DNA of 16,730 nucleotides from Myxococcota bacterium (lineage in GTDB: Bacteria > Myxococcota_A > UBA9160 > PR03). Made by a program: the position numbers and the translations under genes. The notes below the pieces were generated by a model. The model did no database searches and was not told where the DNA came from. It saw only the letters and a program-made list of their open reading frames with translations. The stretch lies in the NCBI GenBank assembly GCA_030066475.1, contig JASJBO010000169.1, positions 1 to 16,730 of the forward strand. Direction: 5' to 3'. Positions within the stretch are counted from its first letter, which is position 1. Each line of letters opens with the position of its first letter. Below are positions 567 to 16,382 of the stretch, one piece after another.

Positions 567-734
567 GGAGCCTCCGTGGAAAGCCGGATCGGTCCGACGA
601 GCGTTCGCCTTGAAACGCGCAGCTCGTGCGCAACTTCGCCGCGCCGCCTCCACCACCGAGAACCCCGAGCCGCGCTCCTGGCTATCATGCTGGGGGCTCG
701 ACGATTCGGCTGCGAGCCCGTTCGGAGGTTGCTC

Positions 735-2220: not shown

Positions 2221-2238
2221 CGAGCGGAGGTCGCTGAA

Positions 2239-2790
2239 ATGGCGTTTCGACTGTTCCTCTCTGCGCTCGGCCTCGTCTTCACGGCCGCGAGCCGGTGGAG
2301 CGAGGCGTTTCGCCGGCAGCTCACACGAGACCTGGTCATCGAGCTGCGCTCGGACGATGGTGTCGCGCGCCACTTCGTCTTTCGCGACCGCCGCGCGACG
2401 AGCCAATCCGGCCGCGCCACATCGCCCGACTGCGCGATCCGCTTCGCGACGGCGGCTCAGGGATTCAGAGCACTGTCGGCGCACGACGGTCCACACCGAC
2501 TGCTCGCGGGCATGATCGAGGGAACGATCGCGATCGAAGGACGCACGACCCTCATGCCGTGGTTTCAGGGACTCGTCCCGGCGGCCATCCCGCTGATGCC
2601 CGTGCTGCGTCTCCCTGCGACGCCACCGCAACCCTATGTCCGACCCGGCGCATCGCCAGAGGTAGCGAAGCGCATCACCATCGAGCCCGCCGCCGTCGCG
2701 CTCGACCCCACGTGGACGGACGCCGCCGCCGCCCGAGAGCGCCTCCTCATGATGCGCGTGGCCGCCGGCGAGTCCGTGAAGCCCTTCTGA
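2239..2790 (+). CDS. SCP2 sterol-binding-like domain protein
   Basis: 183 residues from ATG 2239, preceded by GGAGG 9 bases upstream. The N-terminus (MAFRLFLSALGLVFTAASR) is hydrophobic and may lie against or in the membrane. Residues about 30-115 have the pattern of an SCP2-like lipid-carrier domain: a LVIELRSDDG strand, a FVF strand, then PDCAIRFATAAQGF, a helix, and GMIEGTIAIEGR before a Pro-rich tail (residues about 130-145). SCP2-like domains bind sterols, fatty acyl chains or other hydrophobic ligands. The gene is packed between a DUF169 gene and a linalool-dehydratase-domain gene whose ATG is 2 bases after this stop, so the three are very likely co-transcribed. I infer a carrier or substrate-presenting role for the third gene's hydrophobic substrate. 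The SCP2 assignment is from pattern only. Confidence 0.75.
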   Translation: MAFRLFLSALGLVFTAASRWSEAFRRQLTRDLVIELRSDDGVARHFVFRDRRATSQSGRATSPDCAIRFATAAQGFRALSAHDGPHRLLAGMIEGTIAIEGRTTLMPWFQGLVPAAIPLMPVLRLPATPPQPYVRPGASPEVAKRITIEPAAVALDPTWTDAAAARERLLMMRVAAGESVKPF

Positions 2791-2792
2791 CG

Positions 2793-4457
2793 ATGAGCGC
2801 AACGCCGCACCTCTCCGATCGATCACGCGGCTGGCTGCGCTTCGTGTGGGACAAGGCGACGACACCCGACGACTGGTCGAGCGCCGGCACGCCGAACCCC
2901 TGGTGGGACCGCGACAGCACCGCGCCCATGTGCGCGTTCCCGCGCTTCGACCTCGGCGAGACCGCCTACATCCTGCCCGTGCTCGCCGACCAGACGCCCG
3001 CCTGGCGCGAGGTCTACACGCGCATCGCTGACGAGCTGGTCGGCCGCCACACGACCTTCTGGGCGGCGATCGACTGGCTCACACTGATCGGCCACGACCC
3101 GGACCAGGCGAACTACCCGCCCGAGTGGCTGGGCTTTCTCCCCGAGCGGCTGCGCGGCCGCTACGACGCGCCCGGCTGGACGGGGAACGGCATCGAGCCC
3201 TGGGGCCTGCAGCCCGATCCCATCGGTTCCGACGGCAACCTCTTCTTTCGCGGCTTCTTCAATCTGCTGCTGTCCGTCTATCGCTCGGTCTCGGGAGACG
3301 AGAAGTGGGAGCGGCCGTTCGACGTCGCCGGCTACCAGGACCGGCGCTTCGAGTGGACGCACCATGACATCGCCGAGTTCCTCTACCTCCAGTGGAAGGA
3401 CCGCCCCCAAGGCCCGCACTGCGAGAACACGAAGATCTGGCCATTCTGCCTGAGCGCGGCGGGCCTCGGACTGCAGCTCTATGACGGCGTGGCCGGCACC
3501 GCATTTCACGGCGTCTACGACGAGTGGGTCGAGTACGCGAAGCAGCACTACCTGGTGCGCGACTCGAAGGGCGGCCTTCAGAACTTCCCCTTCTACTACG
3601 ACCCGATCGAGGACGTGATCTGTGGCTTTCCCGATCCACTGGTCGCGATGGCGGCGCTCTCGATCACGCCCTACCTCGTGCCGCAGCACCCCGAGTTCGG
3701 CCGCTACCTCTACGAGGAGGCCGTGCGGAAGCTCGGCTGGAACGATCCCTCGAAGCCGATCGTCGAGCTCTTTCCGGACCCGCGCTTCATCTCGGTCGCC
3801 CTGCTGGTGGCGCAGGACCTCGGCGACGAGACCACGGCCAAGCGCCTCGCCCGGCATGCCGAGGAGAAGTTCGACCCGCGCTGGTTCGGCGAGGAGAACG
3901 ATCGCTTCGGCTGGTGGTTCGGCCTCGACGAGCCGTGGCCACGCGGCCAGCTCTCGGCGCTGCAGATGGTCTGCGACGCGGCGGGCCCGGGGGCGTGGTC
4001 GCGCGCGTTCCGCGAGCCCAACCTCCAGAAGTTCGACGAGCCGACGGTCGAGGGCGTTGACTATCCGTCGCTCGCGATCCGCCGCGCCTGGAACGACCCG
4101 GACGAGGGTGTACTACTGGTCGGCACGTGCGTCGGCACGCCGTCGCGGCGAGGGGTCGCGACGACGTTCCGTGTCGCGCAGCTCCCCGAGGCGTCGTGCA
4201 CCCAGGTGTGCTGCGACGGCGAGGCGTTCCCGCGCTGGCGCGTGATCGACGAGCGAACGATCGAGATCGAGACCGACGTGGACGCCCACGAGTTCCGGAT
4301 CGCGACGCGAGTCGAGGCCGCCCGCGACCCGCGGGACGCGGGCGCGCGGGGAACGGCGCGGAGTGAAGAGGCCGCCGATCCCGTGACGGCCAACCGTCGC
4401 GACTACGCGCCGGCCGCCGCCGCGTCATGCTCGTGCTGCGCGGTGGGTGCCCCCTGA
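2793..4457 (+). CDS. Linalool dehydratase/isomerase-domain protein
   Basis: 554 residues from ATG 2793, translationally coupled to the SCP2-like gene (2-base gap). The body is rich in Trp, Tyr and Phe with alternating helices, as in the (alpha,alpha)6 barrel of the linalool dehydratase/isomerase (Ldi) family: WERPFDVAGYQDRRFEW, then THHDIAEFLYLQW, then CENTKIWPFCLSAAGLGLQL. The last segment has Cys210 and Cys219 nine residues apart. In Castellaniella defragrans Ldi the catalytic cysteines 171 and 180 have the same spacing, so I infer a conserved active-site pair. That enzyme interconverts myrcene, geraniol and linalool; the substrate here is unknown. The protein is longer than that enzyme (about 400 residues) and has a C-terminal beta-rich part (LLVGTCVGTPSRRGVATTF). 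No signal peptide is seen, unlike the periplasmic Castellaniella enzyme. The last ~45 residues are Ala/Arg-rich and end in a Cys cluster (SCSCCAVGAP), which looks non-conserved. Confidence 0.8.
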   Translation: MSATPHLSDRSRGWLRFVWDKATTPDDWSSAGTPNPWWDRDSTAPMCAFPRFDLGETAYILPVLADQTPAWREVYTRIADELVGRHTTFWAAIDWLTLIGHDPDQANYPPEWLGFLPERLRGRYDAPGWTGNGIEPWGLQPDPIGSDGNLFFRGFFNLLLSVYRSVSGDEKWERPFDVAGYQDRRFEWTHHDIAEFLYLQWKDRPQGPHCENTKIWPFCLSAAGLGLQLYDGVAGTAFHGVYDEWVEYAKQHYLVRDSKGGLQNFPFYYDPIEDVICGFPDPLVAMAALSITPYLVPQHPEFGRYLYEEAVRKLGWNDPSKPIVELFPDPRFISVALLVAQDLGDETTAKRLARHAEEKFDPRWFGEENDRFGWWFGLDEPWPRGQLSALQMVCDAAGPGAWSRAFREPNLQKFDEPTVEGVDYPSLAIRRAWNDPDEGVLLVGTCVGTPSRRGVATTFRVAQLPEASCTQVCCDGEAFPRWRVIDERTIEIETDVDAHEFRIATRVEAARDPRDAGARGTARSEEAADPVTANRRDYAPAAAASCSCCAVGAP

Positions 4458-4483
4458 GGAATGCGACACGTGTGATCGGGTAG

Positions 4484-4498
4484 GTGGGTCCGACCCAC
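4484..4498. terminator. Short inverted repeat after the Ldi-like gene
   Basis: GTGGGTC-C-GACCCAC is a perfect 7-base inverted repeat around one central base (in RNA a 6-bp stem with a 3-base loop), 27 bases after the Ldi-like stop. No T-tract follows, so it is at best a weak intrinsic terminator or a Rho-associated 3' hairpin. Confidence 0.25.
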
Positions 4499-4563
4499 TC
4501 CCCGCGCGTGTATCCCACTTGCATCCCGCCGAAAACCGGTCCAGCAGCGGAATCAGTGGCTTC

Positions 4564-4594
4564 TGGCGGAGCGGACGGGACTCGAACGCGCAAC
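4564..4594 (-). repeat. tRNA 3'-end-like sequence, copy A of a direct repeat
   Basis: Read on the minus strand, this stretch ends in TTCGAGT-CCCGT-CCGCTCC-G-CCA, which matches the T-loop, the 3' T-stem, the acceptor 3' strand, the discriminator base and CCA of a tRNA. The 5' T-stem strand (GCGCG) pairs only imperfectly with CCCGT, and no GGAGCGG acceptor 5' strand is present 75-90 bases away, so it is not a complete tRNA. A diverged direct copy lies at 11760-11791; the first 17 bases differ at one position. Partial tRNA 3' ends are typical of integration sites left by tRNA-targeting elements. Confidence 0.5.
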
Positions 4595-4704
4595 TTCCCC
4601 GACCGCCCTCCCCTGTTCCCGGGGACCTGGCGCGACGCTTGCCGAGGGAAGCTGCTACCTGGGTGGTACCTGGTCCGAGCGGGTTGGGGGATTCGGGGGT
4701 CGCC

Positions 4705-5601
4705 CTATTGGATCCGTCTGCGACAGCGATAGGCGCTCGGCGATTCCCCGGTCCAGCGGCGGAAGGCGCGCACGAAGTTGGCCTCGTTCGCGTAGCCGAG
4801 CTCGGCGGAGATCTCCGCGACCGAGAGTGTCGGCTCCTGCAGCCGCGCCTCGACCGCCTCGAAGAGGATCCGATCCAGCAGTCGCCGAAAGCTCATGCCC
4901 TCCTCGCTCAGCCGCCGCCGCAGCGTACGTGGGCTCGTCTCGGCGATCTCGGCAGCGAGGTCGAGCGACAGGTGCTCCGCGCCCACGAGGGGCGCGAGGG
5001 CCTGCTGGAGTGATCCCGCGAGGTCGTTGGCCGCAGCCGGGATCTCGGCTCCGGCGGGAATCGGATCGCTCGGCGTTCCGCGGGGGAGGCGAAGGTCGAG
5101 CAGCTCGTAGGGCACGGCGATCGCCAGCCGCCCGCCTTCGAAGCGAACGGAGCAGCCGCCGAGATCCTCGGCGCGCAGCAGCCAGTCGGAGGCGGCCGAC
5201 TCGGCCCGGACCGCCGGCGGAATCCAGGAGGGCCCGGCCGCGGTCCGCACCACCCGGATCATCGCCCCGAGGGTGTACTGCTCGCCCTGCCGCTCGCCGA
5301 CAGGGTCCTTCGGCGGCAGGTGGCGTCGGCGCCAAAGCCAGGCGTGGTCGGCCCCGTAGTCCACGCCGGCTTCCAGGAACGGGATGTCCCCGATGGCATG
5401 GGCGCAGAAGCAGTGCAGCGCATCGCGGAGCCGCCAGCAGCGGGGAATCAGCTCTCCCCAGCTGCCGATGTGCGAGCCGGGCGCCCGAAGCACGGCGCGG
5501 AAGGCGAAATCGTCCATCTCCAGCGTGCGCGCCGCGCCGGCGAGGAAGCCCAGCAGTCGCCGTGCGGGCAGGAACAGGTGCCCGGGCTCCTCCAGTCGGT
5601 C
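4705..5601 (-). pseudogene. AraC-family (OruR/Arabinose_bd type) regulator, N-terminus missing
   Basis: Recognisable sequence runs from about 5601 (DRLEEPGHLFLPARRLLGFL) to the stop at 4705-4707, about 298 residues. The first part is the ligand-sensing domain of OruR/ArgR-like AraC regulators (DDFAFRAVLRAPGSHIGSWGE, AGVDYGADHAWLWRRRH). The last ~90 residues form two helix-turn-helix motifs: LSLDLAAEIAETSPRTLRRR, then LSVAEISAELGYANEANFVR followed by AFRRWTGESPSAYR. Family members are about 330-340 residues, so roughly 30-40 N-terminal residues are absent. Beyond 5601 the frame stays open on the minus strand, but the opposite strand there clearly encodes a PEP-CTERM C-terminus. The only in-frame start-like codon nearby is TTG 5697, without a ribosome site. 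I infer the 5' end and promoter were deleted. If TTG 5697 were used, a chimeric N-terminus would result. The DNA-binding domain is intact, so residual function cannot be excluded. Confidence 0.75.
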
Positions 5602-5829
5602 TATGACGTCCCCTTGGACGAGTCTGCCTGGAATCAGAACCAGGGCCTCGATTTCTCGGAAGTCCTCCGCCTGGAACTCAACGTGAGTACGGGGCAAGCT
5701 GACTTCGTCGAGATCGACAACATCGCGACGGTGCCGGAGCCGGGCACGGCCCTGCTGCTGGGACTCGGTCTCGCCGGCCTCGCCGCGACCGGCCACTCGC
5801 GGCGGCGAGCGACCCGCGAGACGAACTAG
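5602..5829 (+). pseudogene. C-terminal fragment of a PEP-CTERM exoprotein
   Basis: About 75 codons ending at TAG 5827-5829. Seen: VPLDESAWNQNQGLDFSEVL, then LRLELNVSTGQADFVEIDNI, then VPEPGTALLLGLGLAGLAA and a basic tail (HSRRRATR). This is the end of a jelly-roll-like extracellular domain followed by a complete PEP-CTERM signal: VPEP box, hydrophobic helix, Arg cluster. That signal is recognised by exosortase in family members. There is no start codon, signal peptide or N-terminal domain. Immediately upstream the sequence turns into the antisense of the AraC gene, so the 5' part has been lost. It lies 76 bases before an intact PEP-CTERM gene in the same orientation. Confidence 0.8.
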
Positions 5830-5905
5830 GCCCGTCCACCAGCGGCGGCAGCGACTCCATGCTGCACCGCTTGCCCACCTTTCGAGCCCCTGGAGGAGAC
5901 CCCTG

Positions 5906-6601
5906 ATGCGTTGTCGAACTCTCGTCCTCGCTTCCATCACGCTCTTCGCGTTCGCCTCAGCAGCGAACGCCGCCAGCGTGACCTGGTTCTTCTCCGGGAA
6001 CAGATACTCGGGCAGCTTGCCCGGCGATACCGGCGATCTCTCCGGTGAAGTTACGGTCACCTTGGACGACGAGGGAACGCCGGGCAGCGTCGACATGCGC
6101 GTCGATGCGACCGACCTTGCGGGTCCGGACGACGCGATCACGGCCATATGGCTCAATACCGCCTTCGACAGCGACACGATGTTCGTCCAGGTGAATCCGA
6201 CGACTGGCGGCAACACCTACGACAGCAGAGCGAACAACGAAGACGGCTTCCCCGCCGGAAATACCGATCCCAATTTCAACGACGGGCCCCTTTTCGATCT
6301 CCGTCTACTCTTCAACACACCCACTGGTGGAGGGGATCTGCTCGGCGTAGACAACCCCATCTTCGAGGCGACGTTGACGCTCATGGGTGGTGACCTGACC
6401 ATGAGTGATTTCTTCCCTGAGCTATCCACCGAGAATCCGAATCCGATGGGCGACCAGGGGCCCTTCCAGATTTCGTTGCGCGCGGTCCAGACGCCTGGCG
6501 GTGGCGACGGCCATTTCGCAGGGGTCGTTCCAGAGCCCTCGACCGCCTTGCTGCTGGGCGGCGGCCTGGCCGCATTGGCCTCGTACCGGCGCAAGCGCTG
6601 A
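5906..6601 (+). CDS. PEP-CTERM sorting domain protein
   Basis: 231 residues from ATG 5906, with GGAGGAG at 5892-5898 as ribosome site. The N-terminus is a classic signal peptide (MRCRTLVLASITLFAFASAANA, cleavage after ANA). The mature part is acidic, Gly/Asp/Asn-rich and beta-predicted, with EVTVTLDDEGTPGSVDMRVD, AIWLNTAFDSDTMFVQV and FEATLTLMGGDLTMSDFFPE. It ends in VPEPSTALLLGGGLAALASY followed by RRKR, a complete PEP-CTERM signal: VPEP, one transmembrane helix, basic end. In known systems such proteins are exported by Sec, processed by exosortase and released to the cell surface or biofilm matrix. No exosortase gene is in the window. The domain family of the middle part is not one I recognise. 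Codon use resembles the neighbours, with slightly more A/T-rich codons. It follows a truncated PEP-CTERM stub, suggesting a former cluster of such genes. Confidence 0.88.
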   Translation: MRCRTLVLASITLFAFASAANAASVTWFFSGNRYSGSLPGDTGDLSGEVTVTLDDEGTPGSVDMRVDATDLAGPDDAITAIWLNTAFDSDTMFVQVNPTTGGNTYDSRANNEDGFPAGNTDPNFNDGPLFDLRLLFNTPTGGGDLLGVDNPIFEATLTLMGGDLTMSDFFPELSTENPNPMGDQGPFQISLRAVQTPGGGDGHFAGVVPEPSTALLLGGGLAALASYRRKR

Positions 6602-6678
6602 GGGCGCATCTGCCCGCCCGATGAAGATCGCAGGCCGACTTCCCCGCGCGGCGCCTCGGGCAGCCCGGGGCACGCCTC

Positions 6679-6790
6679 TCACCCTCGGTACGCAGTCGGC
6701 GAGAAGCGCCCCAGGATCTCAGCGATGCTGGCCACGGTGTGGTTCTCCGGGAGATGCTGCGCCGCAGGGAAGCAGGAGAGTAGGCGGCCG
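6679..6790 (-). pseudogene. Possible C-terminal remnant of an unidentified gene
   Basis: In the gap between the PEP-CTERM gene and the SDR gene, one minus-strand frame reads LLSCFPAAQHLPENHTVASI followed by AEILGRFSPTAYRG and a TGA at 6681-6679. It is protein-like (good third-position G/C, helix-like composition) but has no start codon and only about 37 codons before it reaches the end of the SDR gene. I do not recognise the family. I list it as a likely gene-end remnant, alongside the other fragments in this segment. Confidence 0.35.
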
Positions 6791-6798
6791 CGGCACAC

Positions 6799-7683
6799 CT
6801 ACGACCCGCCAAACGGGGGAGTGCCGGGCGCGCGGTAGCGATCGAGCGGGCTGCGCAAGGCGTCGCTGCCGTAGTAGCGCCCGCTGCCTTCGACCTCGCC
6901 GAAGAGCAGGTGGAGCGGGCAGCGCGCGCCCTCGGCCGGCGTCTTCATGCCCATCTCCTCGGGGCTTCGGCCACTCGCCGCGGGGTGGGGCCAGGTCATG
7001 TCGGTGGCGATGTAACCGGGCGTGCAGGCGTTGATGGCGAGGTTCGGATGCAGACGCGCCAGCACGAGTGTGTAGGTGTTGGTGCAGGCCTTCGAGAACC
7101 CGTAGGGACTGCCGTCGCCGAGCCCCCGGGCCCTGAAGGCGGCCGCGTCGGGGAGGCCCAGACACTCGTCGATGAATGCCGAGAGCGCCTCCCAGTCGAG
7201 CTCGCGATCGAGGAAGAAGCGCTGGCGCTCGGGGCTGCACTTCGCGACGAAGTTCGGGCCGGACGCCGAGGTGACGTTGACGATGCGCCCGCACGTGGGG
7301 TCGAGCAGCGGGAGGAAGGCCTCGCACACCCGCTGGACGCCGCGCGTGTTGACCTCGACGACGGACGCGAGGTCGCTTCCACCGAGGCCGATGCCGGCGT
7401 TGTTCACGAGGCCGTAGAGCGGCTGCGGCTCGCCGTCGAAGCGGCCGGCGACCTCGGCAGCGGCGGACCGGACGGACGCCTCGCTCGCCACGTCCAGCGA
7501 GAGCACCGACACGCGCTCCTCGAAAGCGGCCTCCGAAGTGATCAACGACTGGCGGGCCGCCTCACCGCGCTCCGCGTCGCGCGAGCCCAGGAGCAAGAAG
7601 GTGTCGTCGTGCTCCGCCAGAACGCCCCGGGCAATCGCCAGCCCGATGCCCTTGTTGGCGCCCGTCACCAGGACTCGTCTCAT
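6799..7683 (-). CDS. Short-chain dehydrogenase/reductase, CBR1-like carbonyl reductase
   Basis: 294 residues from ATG 7683, with GAGGAGG about 7 bases upstream. The sequence shows a full classical SDR set: cofactor motif TGANKGIG (7-14), NNAG (94-97), catalytic Ser near residue 139 (NVTSASG), and YGFSK with Tyr194 and Lys198. Between the Ser and the Tyr there is a ~50-residue insertion beginning AKCSPERQRFF. The same position and a similar CSPE sequence occur in monomeric animal carbonyl reductase CBR1 (human CSPELQQKF). The C-terminal NACTPGYIATDM block also matches that group. By analogy it should be a monomeric, probably NADPH-dependent, carbonyl/quinone reductase; the substrate is unknown. 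It is cytoplasmic. It is divergent from the PafA/Dop-like gene with about 200 bases between, which should hold both promoters. Confidence 0.88.
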   Translation of the reverse strand: MRRVLVTGANKGIGLAIARGVLAEHDDTFLLLGSRDAERGEAARQSLITSEAAFEERVSVLSLDVASEASVRSAAAEVAGRFDGEPQPLYGLVNNAGIGLGGSDLASVVEVNTRGVQRVCEAFLPLLDPTCGRIVNVTSASGPNFVAKCSPERQRFFLDRELDWEALSAFIDECLGLPDAAAFRARGLGDGSPYGFSKACTNTYTLVLARLHPNLAINACTPGYIATDMTWPHPAASGRSPEEMGMKTPAEGARCPLHLLFGEVEGSGRYYGSDALRSPLDRYRAPGTPPFGGS

Positions 7684-7881
7684 GCGTCGGCCTCCTCGGC
7701 TGGGATCCTTCCCAGCCTGTAGGCTAGCGGGGCTCCTGTTGTGCCGATCGGGACCGGGCTGGCATCCTGCGGCGCCGATCGACGCTCCGGTCGCACCGTC
7801 GGGCGCGGCCTCGGCCACGGGCGAGATCGTCTCGAGCATCGTCCCCACTCCTCCTCGGAGTCCGTTAGCATCTCGCGCTCG

Positions 7882-9705
7882 ATGCGCGAACGCGTCTTCG
7901 GAATCGAGACGGAGTACGCCGTCATCCACCATCCCGGCCGGCGCGAGACGCCGCGGCCGACCAATCTCGAGATCTACGGGCTCTTCGAGTCCCGCCTGGG
8001 GCGTCACCTCGCCAGTCTCCCGCGCGCCTTCTCGCTCTTGCGCTCGAAGCCGGGGCGCTTCCTGGAGAACGGCGCGTCCTTCCACTACGAGGCCACTCCG
8101 AAGGAGTTCGAACACGGCCTGCTCGAGATGGCCAGCCCGGAGTGTCGGGACCCCTTCACGCTCCTCTGTTGCGAACGGGCCAAGGACGCGTTGGTGGAGA
8201 CGCTCTGTCGGGAGGTCAACCTGAGGCTGGCCGGGATGGGCTACTCGGGGGAGGTCCGGATCGGGAAGAACAACGTCGACAGCCAGGGCCACACCTTCGG
8301 CTCCCACGAGAGCTACTGGGTGGAGGATCCTCTTCCCCTCCGCCGCAAGCTCCTGCTGCTTCCACTCTGGATCGTCCTCTGGATCCTTTCGCTCCCGGTC
8401 TTCGCATGGCTGCTCCTGGCCGTGCTGGGGATCCTGTGTGCAGTGCTCGCGGTATTCCTGGTGCCCGGGGTCGGCATGCTGTTGTCAGCTCTCTCCAAGC
8501 CGCTGGCTCGCGTTCAGCGGTCAGCGGCGCTCGGTCTCCGCCGGGCTGCCGCGCGACTGGCGGCGGTCCCGAGGCGGCTCATCGAGTCGGTCCAGTCCCG
8601 CCCGGGTGAGGTGGTGCGCCGACTCAGCTGGATCGAGCTGCCGCTGCGCCCGCTGATCTCCTTGCACTCGTGGATGCACAACCGCTTCCACTTCCAGCGA
8701 TTCCATCGGCACTTGACCGCCTTCCTCGTGACGCGCACCCTCTTCACTGGCGCCGGCTGCGTGGTTCTGGACGGCGGGCCGCCCTTTCGCCTGGCCCAGC
8801 GTCCCCCCTTCCTGCGCAGCCTGGCGCGCGTCTTCACATCCGGCGAGAACCGTCCCCTTTACGAGAGCCGCGACGTGTTCTTCCGCCCCTGGAGCGCTCT
8901 CGGCAGCCGGCGTCGCCTGCACCTGATGATCGGAGACGCGAACCTGTGCGACTGGGCCCTGGTGCTTCGCACCGGCGCCACCGCCCTGGTACTCGAGGCG
9001 ATCGAGACCGGCGCCTCCGCAAGCTGGCCCGAGATGGTCGACCCGCTCCGCGCGCTACGCGCGCTGAGCGCCGACCCGGAGCTGGGCCTCCGCTACCGGC
9101 TCTCGGACGGGAGCGAGCTCTCCGCCCTGGAAATCCAGCGCCGCTACCTGGACGGAGTGAGAGCGGCGCTGGCGGCAGAGATCGAATCCGAGGGCTGGAA
9201 GTCGGAAGTGATGGCGATGTGGGAGGAGACTCTCGACCTGCTGGAGCGGGATCCCGACGAGCTGCGGGACCGCATCGACTGGGTTGCGAAGCGCTCCCTG
9301 ATCCGACGGGAGATTCCCGACCCCGCCGACTGGGAGGCGATCGGGCGCCAGGGGTCCAGGGTGCTTCGCGCCCCGCCGGCTTCGGCCGGCGGGGATTCCC
9401 GTCTTCGCGACTTGGCGTTTCGCGCCCTGCGCGCAGATCTCCGCTATCACGAGCTGGGGCCGCGGGGCGGTCACCGCCACCTCGAGCATCGCGGGGAACT
9501 GCGCAAGCTGGCGGAGCCGGAGCGGGTCGACCGAGCCCGGTTGCAGCCCCCCACGGACACCCGAGCGCTTGCCCGGGGTCGGGCGATTCGCGAGGCGCAC
9601 TCGCGCTCCCTCGCGGGAGCTGCGACCTGGCACCGGGTCCGCTTGGGCCGTTTCGACTGGCGCTGGTATCCGGACCCCCTCGATCCCGGCACCGCGCCCA
9701 GTTGA
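7882..9705 (+). CDS. PafA/Dop (Pup ligase/depupylase) family protein with transmembrane insertion
   Basis: 607 residues from ATG 7882; family similarity starts at once (RVFGIETEYAV, residues 4-14, the ATP/metal-binding GxETEY motif). No good ribosome site precedes it; the frame is open upstream, but that part looks non-coding. In order: NGASFHYEATP (63-73) and SPEC (85-88), matching the family's NGARxYxDHAHPEY and PEC; KNNVDSQGHTFGSHESYW (129-146), matching KNNxDxxGxSYGxHENY; VTRTLFTGAG (283-292); IGDANLCDW (350-358); ALVLEAIE (368-375); and PPTDTRALARGR (556-567). These make membership in the Pup ligase/Dop glutamine-synthetase-like superfamily very likely. Two features are unusual. About 115-130 residues are inserted after HESYW (about 149-277), with strongly hydrophobic helices at 157-197. 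The position expected for the catalytic Asp (PafA Asp64) is Glu70. Members ligate, remove or deamidate the protein tag Pup with ATP. No Pup, Mpa or proteasome gene is in the window, so the substrate is unknown. Confidence 0.85.
   Translation: MRERVFGIETEYAVIHHPGRRETPRPTNLEIYGLFESRLGRHLASLPRAFSLLRSKPGRFLENGASFHYEATPKEFEHGLLEMASPECRDPFTLLCCERAKDALVETLCREVNLRLAGMGYSGEVRIGKNNVDSQGHTFGSHESYWVEDPLPLRRKLLLLPLWIVLWILSLPVFAWLLLAVLGILCAVLAVFLVPGVGMLLSALSKPLARVQRSAALGLRRAAARLAAVPRRLIESVQSRPGEVVRRLSWIELPLRPLISLHSWMHNRFHFQRFHRHLTAFLVTRTLFTGAGCVVLDGGPPFRLAQRPPFLRSLARVFTSGENRPLYESRDVFFRPWSALGSRRRLHLMIGDANLCDWALVLRTGATALVLEAIETGASASWPEMVDPLRALRALSADPELGLRYRLSDGSELSALEIQRRYLDGVRAALAAEIESEGWKSEVMAMWEETLDLLERDPDELRDRIDWVAKRSLIRREIPDPADWEAIGRQGSRVLRAPPASAGGDSRLRDLAFRALRADLRYHELGPRGGHRHLEHRGELRKLAEPERVDRARLQPPTDTRALARGRAIREAHSRSLAGAATWHRVRLGRFDWRWYPDPLDPGTAPS
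9371..9394 (+). other. 10-bp perfect hairpin with TTCG tetraloop inside the PafA/Dop-like gene
   Basis: CCCCGCCGGC-TTCG-GCCGGCGGGG: a perfect 10-bp stem closed by C(UUCG)G, one of the most stable RNA tetraloops. It falls in the codons for a poorly conserved linker (about residues 497-505, PPASAGGDS). It has no T-tract and so is not a terminator. It could be an mRNA-structure element or a small inserted palindromic sequence. Confidence 0.6.
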
Positions 9706-9713
9706 CCCGCGAC

Positions 9714-9809
9714 CCAGCCCTCGGGATGGCCGCCGATCGCGCGTCGTTCGTGACCGGAAGCTGCCTGGTCTGCGACGGCGACAACCTCATCGGCTCGCAC
9801 CTGCTCTGA
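9714..9809 (+). pseudogene. C-terminal fragment of a second short-chain dehydrogenase
   Basis: About 31 codons ending at TGA 9807-9809: ALGMAADRASFVTGSCLVCD followed by GDNLIGSHLL. This matches the invariant C-terminal end of FabG-like SDRs (LASDxASFVTGxxLxVDGG). The rest of the SDR is missing: directly upstream is the 3' end of the PafA/Dop-like gene. ATG 9726 is in frame but would give only 27 residues. It is read as a leftover 3' end after deletion or insertion, and is not related in sequence to the CBR1-like gene at 6799-7683, whose C-terminus is different. Confidence 0.75.
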
Positions 9810-10007
9810 GACGCGACCGGACGCCACGCCCCTCGAAGATGTTCGCCCGTCGAAGGAATGGCACACGGGCCGTCGATCTCCATTCGCGGGATGGGTGCTT
9901 TCCCCGATTCCTCGTGGGGTGAGGCCCCTGGTACGCTGCGCTCGGAGTCGAATCCCCGTGCGGGGTCGGGCGCAGGGGCGCCCGTTGATGGCTCGGAGGG
10001 AGCGCCA

Positions 10008-11693
10008 ATGACGAAGAAGCGACGGCGTCCCACACTCCTCCGGCAGCCGCCTCCTTTCTGCACGTGTGCCGTGGCCCTGCTGTTCGCGGCGGGTCCGGCG
10101 GCCGCTCAAGGCCGCGTCTCGCTCGAGGTCGTCGCCCTCACGGGCGATGCCGCGCCCGACGCCGGCACCGGTGTCTTCTACGAGGGCTTCGATGCTCCCC
10201 TACTGCGCGGCGATGGGAAGGTGGGATTCCGCGCCGACCTCGAGGGGCCCGGAGTGACAGTCGCCGACGACTCCGCGGTCTTCGGGCCAGACGGCTCCGG
10301 TGATCTCGTGCTCCTGGTGCGCGAGGGGGACCCGGCCGGGCCCGGAAGCGTCTTCCGCAGCCTCGATCTCGCGAAGCCGACCGACGCCGGCATCTACCTC
10401 GTGCCGGGGACGACGGGGTTTCCTCACGACGGGATCTGGCGGACCGTGCCTCTGGGAGGCCCCGACCCGATCGCCCGCCAGGGACTGCCCGCCCCGGGCA
10501 CCGGGACGACCTTCAGGTTCCTCGCGTCGCCCGCCCTCAACGAGGCGGGAGCCGCCGCCTTCATTGGCAGCTTCGAGGGCCGCTTCGGCGCGAGCAGATC
10601 TGGCATCTGGCGCATCGACCCGGCCGGCGCCCTCACCGAAGTGGTGATCGAGGGCGATCCGGCGCCCGGCTTCTCGACAGGCACCTTCGAGTTCTTCGCC
10701 TTCCCCATCGTGCTCAACGACGCCGGGAGCATCGCCTTCGGCGCCACCTTGGATTTGAACCTCGGCGGCGCGGGCCAGGCCGACGAAAGGGTCCTCTGGT
10801 TCCAGGCCGACGGGGGACCGCTGCAGCGGCTCACGAGCGAGAATACGGTCGCTCCCGGTCTCGATCCGCTGGGGGGCTTCCTGCTGTTCGGCACGCCGCG
10901 GCTCAACGCGCTCGACGAGGTCGCCTTCACGGCCCAGGTGTTCGGCTCGGGCGTCACACCGTTCAACGACCGCGGCATCTGGGGACCCCACGCCGGCGGC
11001 CCGTTCACGCTGAAGGTGCGTGAGGGCGATGCCGCGCCCGGGACGGAGCCGGGCACCGTGTTCGACGACTTCATCGAGGTCCTGTTGAGCGACGCGGGCT
11101 CGGTGGCCTTCCTCGGTTCCCTCAGCGGGCCCTCGGTCGTCGGCGGCAACGACCAGGGGATCTGGCTCGCCCTTCGCGACGGCTCGCTGCTCCCACTCGT
11201 TCGCGAGGGGGATCCCGTCGACGATCAGCCCGCGGGAACGGTGATCGACATCCTCTCGACGCTGCTGGTGAACGAGGCCGACGAGATCCTGTTCTCGGCC
11301 GTTCTCGCGGGCGGCGGCACGGACTCGTCGAACAACTGGGGGGCGTTCGCCATCGACGGAGCGGGAAACATCGTGACCCTCTTGCGCAAGGGCGAGGTGC
11401 TGGAGGTGGCGCCGGGCGACCTCCGAACCGTCGAGACGCTCTGGTTCCAGGACGACTACTCGAGCCTCTTTGGCCTGCGCAGCTGGAACGACGCCAGCCA
11501 GGCGGCCTTCCGCATCGTGTTCGCCGATGACAGCGAGGCGATCGTCGTCGCCACGCTGGGCCCTCCGGTGGCGGTCCCCCTGCTCGGACCCGGCGGGCTC
11601 GTCGTCCTGGCGGCGCTCCTGGCGTGGGCGGCTCTGCGACCGGCTGCGCCGACCGACCGCGCACGTACCCTGCTCTGGCGTTCGACGACCTGA
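10008..11693 (+). CDS. Secreted tandem-repeat (NxxGxxAF) protein with C-terminal membrane anchor
   Basis: 561 residues from ATG 10008, with GGAGG 8 bases upstream. A basic start plus a hydrophobic stretch (CTCAVALLFAAGPAAAQ) forms a Sec signal peptide, with cleavage after AAA. The mature protein is at least six units of about 60 residues. Each unit has a REGDPAPG-like turn, then GTxFxxF, then LNxxGxxAF: LNEAGAAAF near 177, LNDAGSIAF near 236, LNALDEVAF near 299, LSDAGSVAF near 360 and VNEADEILF near 421. This is the arrangement of the family NCBI names choice-of-anchor tandem repeat NxxGxxAF proteins; the fold is probably a beta-propeller or beta-solenoid. The C-terminus is VAVPLLGPGGLVVLAALLAW followed by Arg-containing residues: a VPLL box, one helix and a basic tail, like IPTL/PEP-type sorting signals. 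It is exported and cell-surface-associated; the biological role is unknown. It is monocistronic. Confidence 0.85.
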   Translation: MTKKRRRPTLLRQPPPFCTCAVALLFAAGPAAAQGRVSLEVVALTGDAAPDAGTGVFYEGFDAPLLRGDGKVGFRADLEGPGVTVADDSAVFGPDGSGDLVLLVREGDPAGPGSVFRSLDLAKPTDAGIYLVPGTTGFPHDGIWRTVPLGGPDPIARQGLPAPGTGTTFRFLASPALNEAGAAAFIGSFEGRFGASRSGIWRIDPAGALTEVVIEGDPAPGFSTGTFEFFAFPIVLNDAGSIAFGATLDLNLGGAGQADERVLWFQADGGPLQRLTSENTVAPGLDPLGGFLLFGTPRLNALDEVAFTAQVFGSGVTPFNDRGIWGPHAGGPFTLKVREGDAAPGTEPGTVFDDFIEVLLSDAGSVAFLGSLSGPSVVGGNDQGIWLALRDGSLLPLVREGDPVDDQPAGTVIDILSTLLVNEADEILFSAVLAGGGTDSSNNWGAFAIDGAGNIVTLLRKGEVLEVAPGDLRTVETLWFQDDYSSLFGLRSWNDASQAAFRIVFADDSEAIVVATLGPPVAVPLLGPGGLVVLAALLAWAALRPAAPTDRARTLLWRSTT

Positions 11694-11759
11694 ACGTGAA
11701 TCTGGCGCGGGAGTGGGGCAACGGCCCGCGAGGAACCCCCCTCGATCGACAACGGAGGA

Positions 11760-11791
11760 TGGCGGGGCGGACGGGAACCCGAACCCGAAAC
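11760..11791 (-). repeat. tRNA 3'-end-like sequence, copy B of a direct repeat
   Basis: TGGCGGGGCGGACGGGA (11760-11776) differs by one base from the start of the repeat at 4564, and about 27 of 32 positions match across the full element when one base is inserted. Read on the minus strand it ends in CCCGTCCGCCCCGCCA, again like an acceptor strand plus CCA. The T-loop part (TTCGGGT) has lost the conserved A58. Flanking sequences are not similar, so the shared part is sharply limited. It is 76 bases before the XRE/nucleotidyltransferase operator. Confidence 0.45.
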
Positions 11792-11834
11792 GCGGAACGC
11801 ATCTGCGACCCCGTTCCAGTTCCAGTGACCTGGA

Positions 11835-11859
11835 GCTATCGATAGCCAATTGGCTATCG
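11835..11859. promoter_or_regulatory. Palindromic operator before the XRE/nucleotidyltransferase operon
   Basis: A perfect 20-bp palindrome, CGATAGCCAATTGGCTATCG, occupies 11840-11859, ending 8 bases before the XRE gene's ATG. It overlaps a second perfect 12-bp palindrome, GCTATCGATAGC (11835-11846). Together they give three CGATAGC-type half-sites in alternating orientation. This is the expected form of an operator bound by the homodimeric XRE protein for autoregulation, as in toxin-antitoxin operons. Its nearness to the start codon implies repression of transcription initiation or a very short leader. Confidence 0.75.
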
Positions 11860-11867
11860 TCACACCC

Positions 11868-12194
11868 ATGTCGATCGCGAGCATCGTCCGGGAGGCCCGA
11901 AGGCGCGCCGGGTTGAGCCAAGCGGCCCTCGCCGAGGCGGCCGGCGTTCCGAAGTCCACCGTGGGCAGGATCGAGTCCGGGACGCGCGCGCCGTCGACCA
12001 AACTCGTGGAACGGCTCGTTCGGGCGGCCGGGCTCGAGGTCACCGTATCCCTTGCCGAGCCTGACCCGGGCACGGACTCGATGTTCGAACGGACGCTCCG
12101 TCGCACACCCGCGCAGCGGCTCGCCGATGCGACCCGAGTAGCCCGCTTCGTCCTGCGCGGCAGACGCGAAGTCAGGGCTTCGGCCGATGGCTAG
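11868..12194 (+). CDS. XRE-family helix-turn-helix regulator, probable antitoxin
   Basis: 108 residues from ATG 11868 (MSIASIVREARRRAGLSQ). An in-frame TTG at 11850 lies inside the palindromic operator and is less likely. Residues about 6-60 form a typical XRE/Cro domain: IVREARRRAGLSQAALAEAA, then GVPKSTVGRIESGTRAPST, with the turn and recognition helix intact. The C-terminal ~45 residues (DSMFERTLRRTPAQRLADAT onward) are helical and could contact the partner. The stop overlaps the nucleotidyltransferase ATG by 8 bases (ATGGCTAG), implying translational coupling. The order (small DNA-binding protein first, nucleotidyltransferase second) and the palindrome immediately upstream are as in autoregulated toxin-antitoxin pairs. 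No strong ribosome site is visible at ATG 11868. Confidence 0.88.
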   Translation: MSIASIVREARRRAGLSQAALAEAAGVPKSTVGRIESGTRAPSTKLVERLVRAAGLEVTVSLAEPDPGTDSMFERTLRRTPAQRLADATRVARFVLRGRREVRASADG

Positions 12195-12702
12195 CGGCGA
12201 CTTCGATCCCGAGCGGATGCTTTCCGTTCTGACGGCGGAAGGCGTGCGGTTCGTGCTGATCGGCGGGATGGCAGCCGTCCTGCATGGCGATGTCGGCGTC
12301 ACCGTCGACCTCGATGTGGTCCCGGACCGCGACGCAAAGAACCTCGAGTGCCTGGCGCGCGCACTACGAGCGCTGGGGGCGCGCATCCGAACCGAGAGCG
12401 AGCCCGAGGGCCTGGTCTTCGACTGCTCGGCCGACTTCTTCGGAAACCTCTTTCCGAACTCGATCGTGAACATGACGACGGAGGCCGGCGATCTGGATGT
12501 CACGTTCTGCCCGAGCGGAACCGAGGGCTTTCCGGACCTTCGGCGCGATGCGGTCGAGATCGAAGCGGCCGAGCGGCTGCACATCCTGGTTGCATCGCTT
12601 GCAGACGTCATTCGCTCGAAGGAGGCCGCTGGTCGGGAGAAGGACCGCCTCGCCCTGCCCCGCCTCCGCAGGCTGCTGGATCGTCTTCGCGAGGACGAGT
12701 AG
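12187..12702 (+). CDS. Nucleotidyltransferase, AbiEii/DUF6036-like, probable toxin
   Basis: 171 residues from ATG 12187. The N-terminal half has the minimal nucleotidyltransferase signature: FVLIGGMAAVLHG (GG at 26-27), followed by T39 and the metal-binding pair D41-x-D43 (TVDLDVVPDRD), then a third acidic strand near AGDLDVTFCP. The rest is helical and ends in a basic/acidic helix (RLRRLLDRLRED). It is related to small stand-alone NTases of the AbiEii/MenT/DUF6036 type, several of which are toxins that transfer nucleotides to tRNA or proteins. Whether this one is toxic is an inference from its pairing with an overlapping XRE gene and operator. At 171 residues it is shorter than AbiEii/MenT proteins (about 250-300), so it may be a distinct subfamily, or an ordinary housekeeping NTase. 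Confidence 0.78.
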   Translation: MASGDFDPERMLSVLTAEGVRFVLIGGMAAVLHGDVGVTVDLDVVPDRDAKNLECLARALRALGARIRTESEPEGLVFDCSADFFGNLFPNSIVNMTTEAGDLDVTFCPSGTEGFPDLRRDAVEIEAAERLHILVASLADVIRSKEAAGREKDRLALPRLRRLLDRLREDE

Positions 12703-12877
12703 CGCGCCACGCCGCGTTGGGTCGTTCGGATCCAGGACCCCGCACAAGGCCCTGTGGCGCCTCGCCCAGGTCCAGCCCCCCGATCGACTCCACGGTCGGA
12801 TTCTCCTGTTCATCCGCCGGCGCGCGGGAAACGGGCGCCACGCTCGCGTTTGGGCGCCGGACCGGAAGCCGAAGGGC

Positions 12878-14293
12878 CTAATCCAGAATCGGGTCGAGCC
12901 GGTAGAAGAGGAGGTTCTCGTCGTTCGGATCCTCGCCCGCGGTGACCATCGAGAGCCGCAGCAGGCGGCGATGCATGATTCGGACGAGGTCTTCGTCGCG
13001 CCCAGGGTCACCAGCCGCGATCACCTCCATCACGGCGGCGTCGGCAGACTCGAGATCCGGATACGAGTGACCCGTGAGCTGGCCGATGTCGGCGGCGGTC
13101 TCGCGTTCGAACCAATCGCGGTATCGCGCGTGGTTCAACAGGAACTTCGGGATGGCACCGAGCAGGTCGCGCTCCCACGTCGCGAACGCAGTGGACGTAG
13201 GAAGCCGTCCGATGTCGACTAGAAGCTTGCGAAGCCCGGAGTCCTCGAAGCGCTTGACCTCGGGCTCGGGCAGGCGCAGGTCCGTGTCGAGCGTCCGGCC
13301 CTCGAGTTCGGCCATGGCCTCGAGCCCTCTCCGCGTGATGCTGCAGTACTCGAAGACGCCCTCGATCCAGTTGCCGCCGATCGTGTCGGGGTCCATGAAG
13401 GTGAGCGCTGCGATCGAGGAGAGCTGCATGAAGTTGACGGTGTGGTAGCCAACCACGCGCAAGTCCACTTCCTGACCGCTCGCCTCCGCGTAACGCCGGT
13501 AGAGCGCAGGAATGTCGCCCATGTCCTCGTAGGGATGGCGGCCGCGAAAGCAGGCGAGATCCCAGTGGGTGTCGCCGATGGCTGCGATCTCGAAATCGAG
13601 CAGCCCGGCCACTGCGGCCCCCGCAGCCATGAACTGGCCCGCGTCGCCGGTGATGAAGCTGGGCTGCGTCCGGTGCTCGGGCACGTTGCGCCGAAGCCAC
13701 GACTGCAAGAACTCGAGCGGCGGATCGATGTTTCCCGTCGCGACGCCGTAGCGATACATGCGCTCGGTCGCCGTGAGCGCGATATCGGCGGCCGTCTCGG
13801 GCGCGGCCATTCCGCGGATGTGCGCGAACTTGTCGATGGGGACGCGATGAACCGCGGCGAGGTGATCCATGTAGTTCAACATCGCCTGCCAGCGCTCGCC
13901 GCTCATGCTCGGCGTTTCCTCGAAGGCGGTGTGGAGCATTCCGGGCGCGCGCTCTTCCGTATCGATCCAGTCCATCACGAAGGCCTTCGGCGAATCCATC
14001 CAGCCGTAGACGTGCGGAACCTTGATCCCGTTCTCCTCGAGCACTTGCATGACGTCCATCTCGAACCGCAGCGCGTTCTTGCCCGCATTCGGCCGGTTGC
14101 CGCGCACGAAGATCGCGCCGGTCTCGCCGCCCTTCTCGTACGTGACCTTCCAGCACGGGCGCCAGCGTTCGAGGCGCTCGATCTCGCGCACCTTCGCGCC
14201 GAGCGTGTCCGAAACCCACTGGGCAATCCCTGCGTGCTGACTCGCCTCGAGGGCGTCATGACCCTGGCCGTTCACAGTCGTGCGGTGTTCCAC
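12878..14293 (-). CDS. Phosphotransferase (APH/kinase-like fold) family protein
   Basis: 471 residues from GTG 14293 (VEHRTTVNGQG). ATG 14401 in the same frame would add 36 residues; neither has a clear ribosome site. Domain similarity begins near IAQWVSDTLGAKVREIERL. Seen: N-lobe strands (WKVTYEKGGETGAIFVRGNR), FEMDVMQVLEENGIKVPHVYG, hinge-like AFVMDWIDTEER, then the catalytic region FITGDAGQFM and LLDFEIAAIGDTHWDLACF. The overall order matches aminoglycoside-phosphotransferase/choline-kinase-like proteins of the kind found in lipid- or xenobiotic-degrading bacteria. The usual HGDxxxxN reads TGDAGQFM here: the Asp remains, but the His is Thr and the Mg-binding Asn is Met. DFE replaces the second motif. 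It could therefore be a variant kinase with a different metal site or a non-catalytic member. The long C-terminal helical domain (about 170 residues) is extra compared with APH enzymes. It stands alone. Confidence 0.82.
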   Translation of the reverse strand: MEHRTTVNGQGHDALEASQHAGIAQWVSDTLGAKVREIERLERWRPCWKVTYEKGGETGAIFVRGNRPNAGKNALRFEMDVMQVLEENGIKVPHVYGWMDSPKAFVMDWIDTEERAPGMLHTAFEETPSMSGERWQAMLNYMDHLAAVHRVPIDKFAHIRGMAAPETAADIALTATERMYRYGVATGNIDPPLEFLQSWLRRNVPEHRTQPSFITGDAGQFMAAGAAVAGLLDFEIAAIGDTHWDLACFRGRHPYEDMGDIPALYRRYAEASGQEVDLRVVGYHTVNFMQLSSIAALTFMDPDTIGGNWIEGVFEYCSITRRGLEAMAELEGRTLDTDLRLPEPEVKRFEDSGLRKLLVDIGRLPTSTAFATWERDLLGAIPKFLLNHARYRDWFERETAADIGQLTGHSYPDLESADAAVMEVIAAGDPGRDEDLVRIMHRRLLRLSMVTAGEDPNDENLLFYRLDPILD

Positions 14294-14454
14294 CCCTGCA
14301 GTATGACCAACCGAAGCGCTGGATCGCCAGTTCTCGAAGGCCTCACGAATCAGCGCGATGTCGAGCGACCCTCCAACGCCGACCGGTACGTCCCTCGCCA
14401 TCAGAAGGATTGGGGGATTCCGACCACCGGCTGTCAGGTCGAGGCTGGCCGCGC

Positions 14455-14958
14455 TCAGCGAATCGAGTCGCTCAATGCGGCGCTCATGGACGCCGGGAAC
14501 GCCACGATCACGATCCGCTTGAGGGCCAGCACGTCGTCCGTGCCCCACGGGCAGCGATCCAAGAGCGTCAGGAGCAGGCCCGCCACGAAGAGCGAGGCAG
14601 AGAAGGTCAGGAGCACGCGGATCACATAGGCGCCCAGGTGCTCGCGCAGATGGTGCTGGTAGAAGTTGCAGTACACGAAGGCGGCGATGAGGCCCAGCGA
14701 GAACCCACCGAGCACGCCAATTCGCGCCGTCGACAGCTGCTCGGCCAGGTTCCAGGCCTCCTCCGTCAGCGAGACGGGGACCGAGAGGACCGCGGCACCC
14801 ACGAGGATCTGGATCAGGTCCGCGGACTTGATCTCGACCATGAGCGGCGTGACGGCGTGGTGAACGATCCGACCCGCCTGATCCACGATCGGCGTGAGCT
14901 TGTGCAGGTGCCCTCCGACGCGGACAAGGGAGTGATCCTGGGTATCGTGCTCGGCCAT
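14455..14958 (-). CDS. DUF2391 (TIGR02587-like) integral membrane protein
   Basis: 167 residues from ATG 14958, with GGAGGAG about 4 bases upstream. After a ~45-residue soluble N-terminus (HDTQDHSLVRVGGHLHKLTP) come about four hydrophobic segments: ILVGAAVLSVPVSLTEEAW, IGVLGGFSLGLIAAFVYC, VIRVLLTFSASLFVAGLLLT and IVIVAFPASMSAALSDSI. The AFPAS...SD ending and the helix layout resemble DUF2391 putative inner-membrane proteins, whose function is not known to me. It is the last gene of a leftward operon, 23 bases after the DUF900 hydrolase stop, and downstream of a TrkA-C domain gene. That context suggests involvement in ion homeostasis or envelope stress, which is inference only. Confidence 0.8.
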   Translation of the reverse strand: MAEHDTQDHSLVRVGGHLHKLTPIVDQAGRIVHHAVTPLMVEIKSADLIQILVGAAVLSVPVSLTEEAWNLAEQLSTARIGVLGGFSLGLIAAFVYCNFYQHHLREHLGAYVIRVLLTFSASLFVAGLLLTLLDRCPWGTDDVLALKRIVIVAFPASMSAALSDSIR

Positions 14959-14981
14959 CGGGCTCCTCCGCCGCTCGCCGG

Positions 14982-16343
14982 CTACTCGCCCGTCGATCGC
15001 GCCGGCTCGCTGCCCCGCGACGGGTTCGGGTAGTCCTTCGGCATCGTCCAGAAGTTGAGGGTCTCGTGCCGGAGCGGCCGGGCCGGCTCCCCGGGTCGGT
15101 TTCCCCCCTGCAAGATGAGAATGAGGTCCGAGCTCGCGGCCGGGCTCGAGCGGTAGTAGGCGTGGCCGATCAAGCCGCCGACGCCCTCGACCTCGACGAT
15201 GTTCACGTTGGTCACTTCCGTGAAGATCTGCTGCTCGCGCTCGCCGAGGTCGGCTCCCTCCACCCGGCCGAACCGGGTCCCGCTCATCAGCGTCTGGGAA
15301 GCGCCCAGGGCCTTGTCCGCCTGGGTCGTGTAGATCGTGATCTGGCCGATCGCCGGGCCGAACTTCTCGGCCATCAGACGCTGGCGCACGACGTCGAGGT
15401 CGAGGTCGGGCGCCGCGAGAACGAGGTTGGCGATGCGCAGGCTCTCGCGCGGGTTCCTGCCCGCGGCGCGGGTTTCGATCACGAGCTCCCGCAGGGCGGT
15501 GGTGACCACGTCCGTCCCCCGGCTGTGAGCGAGGACGTGGATCCGCTCGACCTCCGGCGACGACGCCAGCAGCCGCAAGAACTCCTTCAGATGGAAGATG
15601 GTGAACTCCCCCGACTCCCGGTCGATGAAGTAGCCGAACAGGCCACCGTGCGCGGCGGGCCAGCTGTAGAGCACCGGCACGCCGCGACGCCCGAGGAAGT
15701 GCCACACCTCGGCCTGGGCCCGGGCGGCGAAGTCGAACGAGTTGTTGAAGCCGTGGACGTAGACGAGGACCTCCTTGTCCGGCACCGTCGCCAGGCGGCG
15801 ATGGAGATGCTCCAGGAAGTCTGCCTCGGCCCGCTTCTGCTCGGCCCGGACCTCGGGGGCCTCCACCGTGTCACCGCCCTCGACGGTGAAGGGTCGCGGA
15901 GTCGCGGGGAAGCGTCCGTGCTCCGTGATCGAGCGGACGTGCACCTTGGGGTTCCGGGCGCGTTGCTTCGTCCCGCTGACCTCGACGAGATCCTCCCAGG
16001 AGATCTCGTCCCCGATCTCGACCGTCACCGAGCCGTAGGCGGCCGAGGCAGAGCGGCGTGCGCCGTAGGCCAGGGCGCCGTCGACGGTCTCCGGCGCCCG
16101 GTCGGTGACGTAGAGCAGCTCCAAGCGACTGCTCCGAGCGGCCGCCGCCACCTGGCTCTCGGGATAGCCGCCGCTGCGAACGTAGAGGTTCGGTGTCGGC
16201 ATCAGGGGATGGCCCGTGGCGCAGCCGACCGATGTCAGGACCAGCAGGGTCGCAAGCGAGCGCAGCACGCTGAATCGACGCCCCTGGCTCCCAGAACACA
16301 CCCCGGCGGGGTAGCCGAGCCCGACGGCAGATTGGCAGGTCAT
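14982..16343 (-). CDS. DUF900 alpha/beta hydrolase, exported, probable lipoprotein
   Basis: 453 residues from ATG 16343, which has GAGG 7 bases upstream. GTG 16268 (VLRSLATLLVLTSVGCATGH) would give a more compact signal peptide and is a real alternative. The hydrophobic segment ends in TSVGC; Cys41 may be lipidated, but the lipobox is imperfect (Ser at -3). The mature part is a DUF900-type esterase/lipase fold: LELLYVTDRAP, then KEVLVYVHGFNNSFDFAA, YSWPAAHG, and the nucleophile elbow LAHSRGTDV with Ser274 (HxSxG). Asp and His of the triad are plausibly in LAAPDLDLD and GHAYYRS. It would act in the periplasm or envelope; the substrate is unknown. The gene lies between a TrkA-C domain gene upstream and a DUF2391 gene downstream, with short gaps, so they are likely one operon. 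Confidence 0.85.
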   Translation of the reverse strand: MTCQSAVGLGYPAGVCSGSQGRRFSVLRSLATLLVLTSVGCATGHPLMPTPNLYVRSGGYPESQVAAAARSSRLELLYVTDRAPETVDGALAYGARRSASAAYGSVTVEIGDEISWEDLVEVSGTKQRARNPKVHVRSITEHGRFPATPRPFTVEGGDTVEAPEVRAEQKRAEADFLEHLHRRLATVPDKEVLVYVHGFNNSFDFAARAQAEVWHFLGRRGVPVLYSWPAAHGGLFGYFIDRESGEFTIFHLKEFLRLLASSPEVERIHVLAHSRGTDVVTTALRELVIETRAAGRNPRESLRIANLVLAAPDLDLDVVRQRLMAEKFGPAIGQITIYTTQADKALGASQTLMSGTRFGRVEGADLGEREQQIFTEVTNVNIVEVEGVGGLIGHAYYRSSPAASSDLILILQGGNRPGEPARPLRHETLNFWTMPKDYPNPSRGSEPARSTGE

Positions 16344-16382
16344 ATCGGATCCTCGATGGCTTCCACGATCGATCCTTTTCGC

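Follow-up and report, generated by a model that had tools for sequence, protein, structure and literature searches.

A stretch of 16,730 nt (hereafter the window; assembly GCA_030066475.1, contig JASJBO010000169.1, positions 1–16,730, forward strand) from a Myxococcota bacterium (GTDB lineage Bacteria; Myxococcota_A; UBA9160; PR03) carries a gene for a 607-amino-acid protein of the Pup ligase family (PF03136; 7882..9705, forward strand). The protein contains a conserved hydrophobic insert and a Glu at the position of a catalytic Asp of PafA and Dop, the canonical members of this family. These features are best explained by a membrane-tethered third paralog of the PafA/Dop family that acts as a ligase and uses the ordinary Pup of its host, a reading that in our estimate stands about an even chance of being right. 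Computed from the sequences were the family, the core fold, the conserved insert, the replacement of Asp by Glu, and the lack of a recognized adjoining Pup gene, as well as the co-occurrence with canonical Pup, PafA/Dop, and 20S proteasome genes in the genomes of most relatives.

Family Membership and Phylogeny

The open reading frame (ORF) is uninterrupted from the ATG at 7882 to the stop codon at 9703–9705. Its sole Pfam match up to an E-value of 1 is PF03136 (E = 1.2e-87; score 295.1 bits, cut-off 25; profile positions 1–440 of 441), which bears out the assignment to the Pup ligase family made in a first-pass annotation of the DNA. The PafA/Dop motifs quoted there occur in the expected order, and in an AlphaFold2 model the glutamine synthetase-like core of PafA/Dop is intact despite the insert. 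A sequence search of the PDB returned five distinct sequences, all of them PafA or Dop entries. Several relatives are named “proteasome accessory factor PafA2 family protein [Myxococcota bacterium]” by NCBI, and a search for viral relatives found none.

Phylogenetic analysis (57 proteins, 460 columns) assigned the window protein, together with the insert-bearing copies of its relatives, to a clade termed m; a second insert-bearing clade, which includes Pseudenhygromyxa (P0207), is termed a. Because the 32 insert-bearing rows made up only 56% of the alignment, columns filled by these rows alone were under the 60% limit. The m, a, PafA, and Dop sequences each occupy one side of their own branch with a support of 100/100, and m and a together lie on one side of a branch (100/99) with PafA, Dop, and ungrouped rows opposite. 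The window protein thus falls outside both the PafA and Dop clades, in a tree with long-branch warnings that concern chiefly three ungrouped and three a rows, whose joins may be false. Among 282 genomes of the phylum to which host genome G004 belongs (Myxococcota), 68 contain PF03136. Nine have the m kind (G004, G011, G094, G154, G164, G236, G239, G259, and G281) and nine the a kind (G054, G063, G189, G218, G227, G266, G270, G274, and G285), as recognized from fetched copies, with PF03136 fragments at contig ends (e.g., G139, G144, G187, G238, G244, G263, and G268) not individually classified. No genome with both kinds was seen among the 282. In the class of G002, the m enzyme is found in 14 of 90 genomes and some relative in 87.

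The Hydrophobic Insert

The insert follows the HESYW segment (residues 142–146; 8305..8319, forward strand), which was located by motif and alignment and ends the preceding core strand. HESY (142–145) and FLVTR (281–285) are separated by 135 residues in the window protein and by 17 in PafA/Dop (15 parsable of 18 copies); the insert thus adds approximately 118 residues, in agreement with the 115–130 proposed in the first-pass annotation. The Kyte-Doolittle mean over 19 residues is at least 1.6 across residues 155–206 (8344..8499, forward strand) and peaks at 3.02, a value reached by none of 2000 shuffles of the protein (highest 2.81, mean 1.68). This hydrophobic run, placed at 157–197 in the first-pass annotation, is the presumed membrane anchor. 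A second, borderline stretch (1.65) is located at 278–296, at the start of the core. The run is followed by amphipathic, mostly basic return helices (residues 207–269; 8500..8688, forward strand), which AlphaFold2 places at 213–239, 241–252, and 255–269. The net charge over the columns of residues 207–252 averages +5.7 (range 2 to 10; 70 m rows).

Homologs with the same insert were found, and a similar run occurs in the same place in all 23 insert-bearing copies tested (14 from the window’s clade and nine from the sister clade). The first-pass annotation had considered that canonical PafA/Dop might share this segment, but none of six insert-less copies has a hydrophobic run at the insert position; a seventh, divergent one (G206x1) shows a single weak run at a different place, residues 354–374. 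Within the m clade, mean identity is 40% in the hydrophobic part, compared with 72% in the N-terminal and 62% in the C-terminal core, and the hydrophobicity is kept. The ratio of nonsynonymous to synonymous substitution rates, calculated for four pairwise comparisons within a set of five relatives from one sub-lineage (window excluded), is 0.10–0.29 for the core and 0.16–0.37 for the insert; both are therefore under purifying selection in that sub-lineage. Since the insert is conserved, hydrophobic, and missing from the PafA/Dop copies, the window protein is likely tethered to the membrane through it. The tethering claimed in the first-pass annotation thus becomes the likely reading.

A Glutamate in the Active Site

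By alignment, Glu70, the last residue of the segment NGASFHYE (residues 63–70; 8068..8091, forward strand), stands where PafA/Dop have their catalytic Asp, which we take to be D94 of Dop. The first-pass annotation listed NGAxxxxE as a canonical motif and overlooked this replacement. At the Asp position after NGARxYx, all 18 PafA/Dop sequences (nine of each) have Asp, and all 234 aligned proteins of the insert clade have Glu (115/115 m and 119/119 a), a residue that thus marks this clade. The m proteins were aligned from the best 120 of 785 matches and the a proteins from the best 120 of 463, with five of the former and one of the latter left out for length; an earlier pattern-based count had found Glu in 114/120 and 101/120, the remainder being unparsable. 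Approximately seven extra residues follow Glu70. According to PMC8599861, D94 of Dop most likely activates water, and the replacement in the insert clade represents a natural experiment on a residue to which this role is ascribed; the part of PMC10465538 available was of no help on the role of the Asp.

Most other sites tested are unchanged in the m proteins. H142, Q306, R307, R330, H347, D559, and R561 are kept in 115/115 of them, as in 18/18 PafA/Dop, and E9, E11, E87, N130, N354, D398, and H523 have one to four exceptions each. Different residues occupy the first set of positions in the a proteins (n = 119): Gln replaces H142 and H347, and Gly replaces R330, in all 119; Q306 is Glu in 113 and Gln in six, R307 is Lys in 118 and Arg in one, D559 is Asp in only 44, and R561 is mostly Pro (109). 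The coincidence of this retention with a canonical Pup in the m group, and of the changes with a divergent Pup in the a group, suggests that the m enzymes may bind canonical Pup. Given the sister relationship of the two groups, keeping the seven residues in m is also simply the older state.

Pup and Proteasome Genes in the Host Genomes

Canonical Pup is encoded in ten of the 13 m host genomes tested (all of the 14 but G288) and ends in ...EEFVKNYVQRGG[E/Q]. The same ten genomes have three PF00227 matches each, two of which share the contig of Pup, except in G001, where the contig is that of the second canonical enzyme. The genomes without a Pup match (G002, G003, and G259) are assemblies of 1.6–2.0 Mb. 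Canonical PF03136 copies accompany Pup in the ten hosts and are split or cut by contig ends in G001, G004, G005, and G239. NCBIfam distinguished PafA (L060) and Dop (L058) at one locus each, and typing of ten fetched loci by motif and tree found both PafA and Dop in eight. The m gene and Pup are on different contigs in 10/10 genomes; in G011, for instance, the two contigs measure 47 and 55 kb, and neither gene is close to a contig end.

A dedicated Pup for the window’s clade was sought in three ways and not found. Beside the m gene, no recognized Pup-like ORF occurs in any of 14 loci (window included), as judged from complete ORFs of 40–140 amino acids that end in [GR][EQ] and lie within 2.5 kb (several loci are shorter, for instance with 43 bases before the gene in L071 and 261 after it in L064); on visual inspection, none of the eight ORFs with this ending, from six of the loci, has a tail like that of Pup. 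Across the entire window, two ORFs have a similar end, and neither is Pup-like. A profile of nine a-type Pups, which recovers all nine used to build it, matched nothing at E 0.001 in the 14 m genomes (best 0.066), with 150 of the candidates scored in ten of them. A very divergent Pup could have been missed by these searches. Canonical Pup is therefore the only recognized Pup available to the m enzyme.

The sister group a differs in this respect, because a small ORF precedes the enzyme gene directly in 9/9 loci (the ninth being L080). Its product has a tail like YLRETxVPxGGE, of which Y, VP, and GGE are invariant. None of the nine a genomes has a match to the Pup model PF05639, which thus misses a-type Pups. 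A single PF03136 match is present in eight of the nine genomes; in the remaining one (G270), pieces of it lie on two contigs. Six of the nine have one proteasome-family match, on a contig other than that of the enzyme, which probably is HslV. If one enzyme and one GGE Pup are the whole system of the a group, this enzyme must be a ligase; by analogy, the window enzyme would seem to be a ligase rather than a depupylase.

Proposed Function and Alternative Explanations

If the window protein is a membrane-tethered ligase, the most likely form of its insert is a hairpin of hydrophobic helices that exits the cytoplasmic core, enters the membrane, and returns, so that both halves of the core would remain cytoplasmic. 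The enzyme would activate the C-terminal glutamate of the host’s ordinary Pup with adenosine triphosphate (ATP) and attach it to lysine residues of proteins in or near the membrane, which would thereby be marked for the proteasome or for regulation. A more far-reaching proposal, which we put forward tentatively and consider somewhat doubtful, is that one Myxococcota lineage operates one Pup in two pupylation arms. One arm would be the ordinary soluble system of PafA, Dop, and the 20S proteasome, and the other a separately encoded third ligase, tethered to the membrane and working with a Glu in its active site, by which proteins at the membrane are tagged. If true, at least two ligases would operate within one Pup system, with a cell compartment allotted to each. 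Where a genome has the Pup-proteasome system, an additional enzyme bound to the membrane would make the turnover of membrane proteins by pupylation testable.

Several observations weigh against a membrane-tethered third Pup ligase. The window protein scores 210.3 bits with the PafA equivalog TIGR03686 (cut-off 551.3) and 196 bits with the Dop equivalog TIGR03688 (cut-off 492.3). Its GIETEY-to-NGA segment, in which Dop carries its extra loop, has 50 residues and thus lies between PafA (37 in 9/9) and Dop (69 in 9/9). The Asp-to-Glu exchange together with the extra residues behind it could alter the reaction, and the N of HEN is replaced by S in 88/115 m proteins. AlphaFold2 models residues 153–208 as a single unbroken helix, which is too long for one straight membrane pass; a two-pass hairpin and an in-plane helix both fit. 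Furthermore, the co-occurrence with Pup and proteasome genes pertains to the genomes of relatives, the a-type Pup profile was applied to a limited number of candidates in most m genomes, and no neighbor gene is common to all m loci.

One alternative is an ATP-dependent carboxylate-amine ligase with a donor other than Pup, which might be a different peptide, a substrate linked to lipid, or a small molecule found at the membrane. This is what the missing adjoining Pup (0/14 loci), the location of enzyme and Pup genes on different contigs, the exchange of Asp for Glu, and the rhomboid-like protease or amidase next to the enzyme in sub-lineages would speak for. However, nearly all other tested PafA/Dop residues are kept, including those altered in the group with the divergent Pup, and a usable Pup is present in 10/13 hosts; we regard a non-Pup donor as unlikely but worth serious consideration. 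A membrane-tethered depupylase or deamidase, which would remove Pup from membrane proteins or mature Pup, appears improbable, since canonical Dop is also present in the hosts, the sequence models slightly favor PafA (210 versus 196 bits), the GIETEY-to-NGA segment is shorter than in any of the Dop sequences, and the sister group pairs its one enzyme with a GGE Pup. The replacement of the catalytic Asp in 234/234 proteins might indicate a catalytically weak or inactive paralog, a receptor or regulator that would bind Pup or its conjugates at the membrane. The replacing residue is another acid, though, the acidic and other residues named for metal, ATP, and phosphate binding by Iyer et al. (2008; PMC2588565) are otherwise largely kept, and no other PF03136 match is present in 8/9 genomes of the sister group, whose enzymes have Glu as well. 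We consider such a weak or inactive paralog very improbable.

Relation to Known Enzymes

The membrane-anchored kind of enzyme is already known, in contrast to the statement in the first-pass annotation that no such member had been described. Iyer, Burroughs, and Aravind (2008; PMC2588565) described Pup ligases of Plesiocystis and Rhodopirellula that have an adjacent Pup of their own and a transmembrane insertion directly after core strand 4, with four transmembrane segments stated, and this rules out novelty of the anchor itself. The window protein shares with them the PF03136 enzyme, the position of the hydrophobic insertion, and the lack of adjoining proteasome genes. By published description, the a group fits this type. 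The window’s clade differs from it because a recognized adjacent Pup is missing (0/14 loci, compared with 9/9 in a), most hosts carry canonical PafA, Dop, and Pup, and the window insert consists of one long hydrophobic run plus amphipathic helices instead of four transmembrane segments. Like the PafA/Dop homolog of some Planctomycetes that served as an outgroup (PMC7947786, accessible part), the window protein is a family member outside the PafA and Dop clusters; that homolog is set apart by its description as single-copy, in which no insert or anchor is mentioned. PafA (TIGR03686; PDB 4bjr, 4b0t) differs from the window protein in lacking the insert, in its catalytic Asp, and in clade and model score, and Dop (TIGR03688; PDB 5lrt, 7oxy) in its longer GIETEY-to-NGA segment, its Asp, and likewise in clade and score. 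No paper on a third PafA/Dop paralog, and under the name PafA2 none with a title on such an enzyme, was found in a search that mostly did not extend to subscription journals, and the accessible part of a 2025 review (PMC12288473) contains no words for myxobacteria, planctomycetes, membrane, or paralog. Not met in the literature searched were a third paralog that lacks its own Pup beside a Pup-proteasome system and the clade-wide change from Asp to Glu.

Gene Neighborhood and Additional Observations

The gene is flanked by a divergent short-chain dehydrogenase gene (6802..7683, reverse strand) and, downstream, by a gene for a DUF7453 protein (10008..11693, forward strand), both assigned by Pfam and with manually chosen start codons. 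Counterparts of neither were found beside the relatives’ genes; the enzyme gene of the window seems to be solitary. In five of 15 m loci (L001, L004, L067, L068, and L070; Pfam for L068 only, BLAST for the others), a gene for a rhomboid-like intramembrane protease with a GASG motif comes immediately before the enzyme gene in the same orientation and ends 28–119 bases upstream of each locus’s reference point. Its product could be functionally linked to the enzyme in certain sub-lineages. Six of the 15 loci (L002, L003, L065, L066, L069, and L122/G288; Pfam for L066 only, BLAST for the others) have an amidase-like gene downstream on the same strand, and relatives of Fpg, ThiI, and a DEAD helicase are encoded divergently upstream in most of them (Pfam for L066, BLAST for the others). 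As these arrangements are limited to sub-lineages, a conserved operon is ruled out as a general feature of the m group. The window has neither the rhomboid-like nor the amidase-like neighbor, and its ten ORFs scanned with Pfam include no membrane-protein gene of the kind that neighbors the enzymes of Iyer et al. (2008).

Elsewhere in the window, an ORF at 2295–4457 (forward strand) matches a linalool dehydratase/isomerase domain (PF18566), and an AraC-type regulator comes next, encoded on the opposite strand within 4705–6216. The products of two neighboring ORFs at 5320–5829 and 5906–6601 (both forward) end, by eye, in VPEPGTALLLGLGLAGLAA... and VPEPSTALLLGGGLAALASYRRKR, respectively, which we take to resemble PEP-CTERM sorting signals. 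The region 11850–12702 (forward strand) encodes a small helix-turn-helix protein (PF01381) and then a protein that matches the DUF6036 nucleotidyltransferase family below the threshold, an order of genes that resembles a toxin-antitoxin pair.

Unusual PF03136 genes were also seen in other genomes. In the 1.4-Mb assembly of Patescibacteria group bacterium AH-259-L07 (L006, L007), PF03136 matches four times, spread over two contigs, and the Pup model PF05639 has no match. G206 contains two strongly divergent PF03136 genes side by side (L081:6588–8420 and L081:8424–11117, forward strand), on a contig other than that of its canonical locus, and the second of them has a long C-terminal extension.
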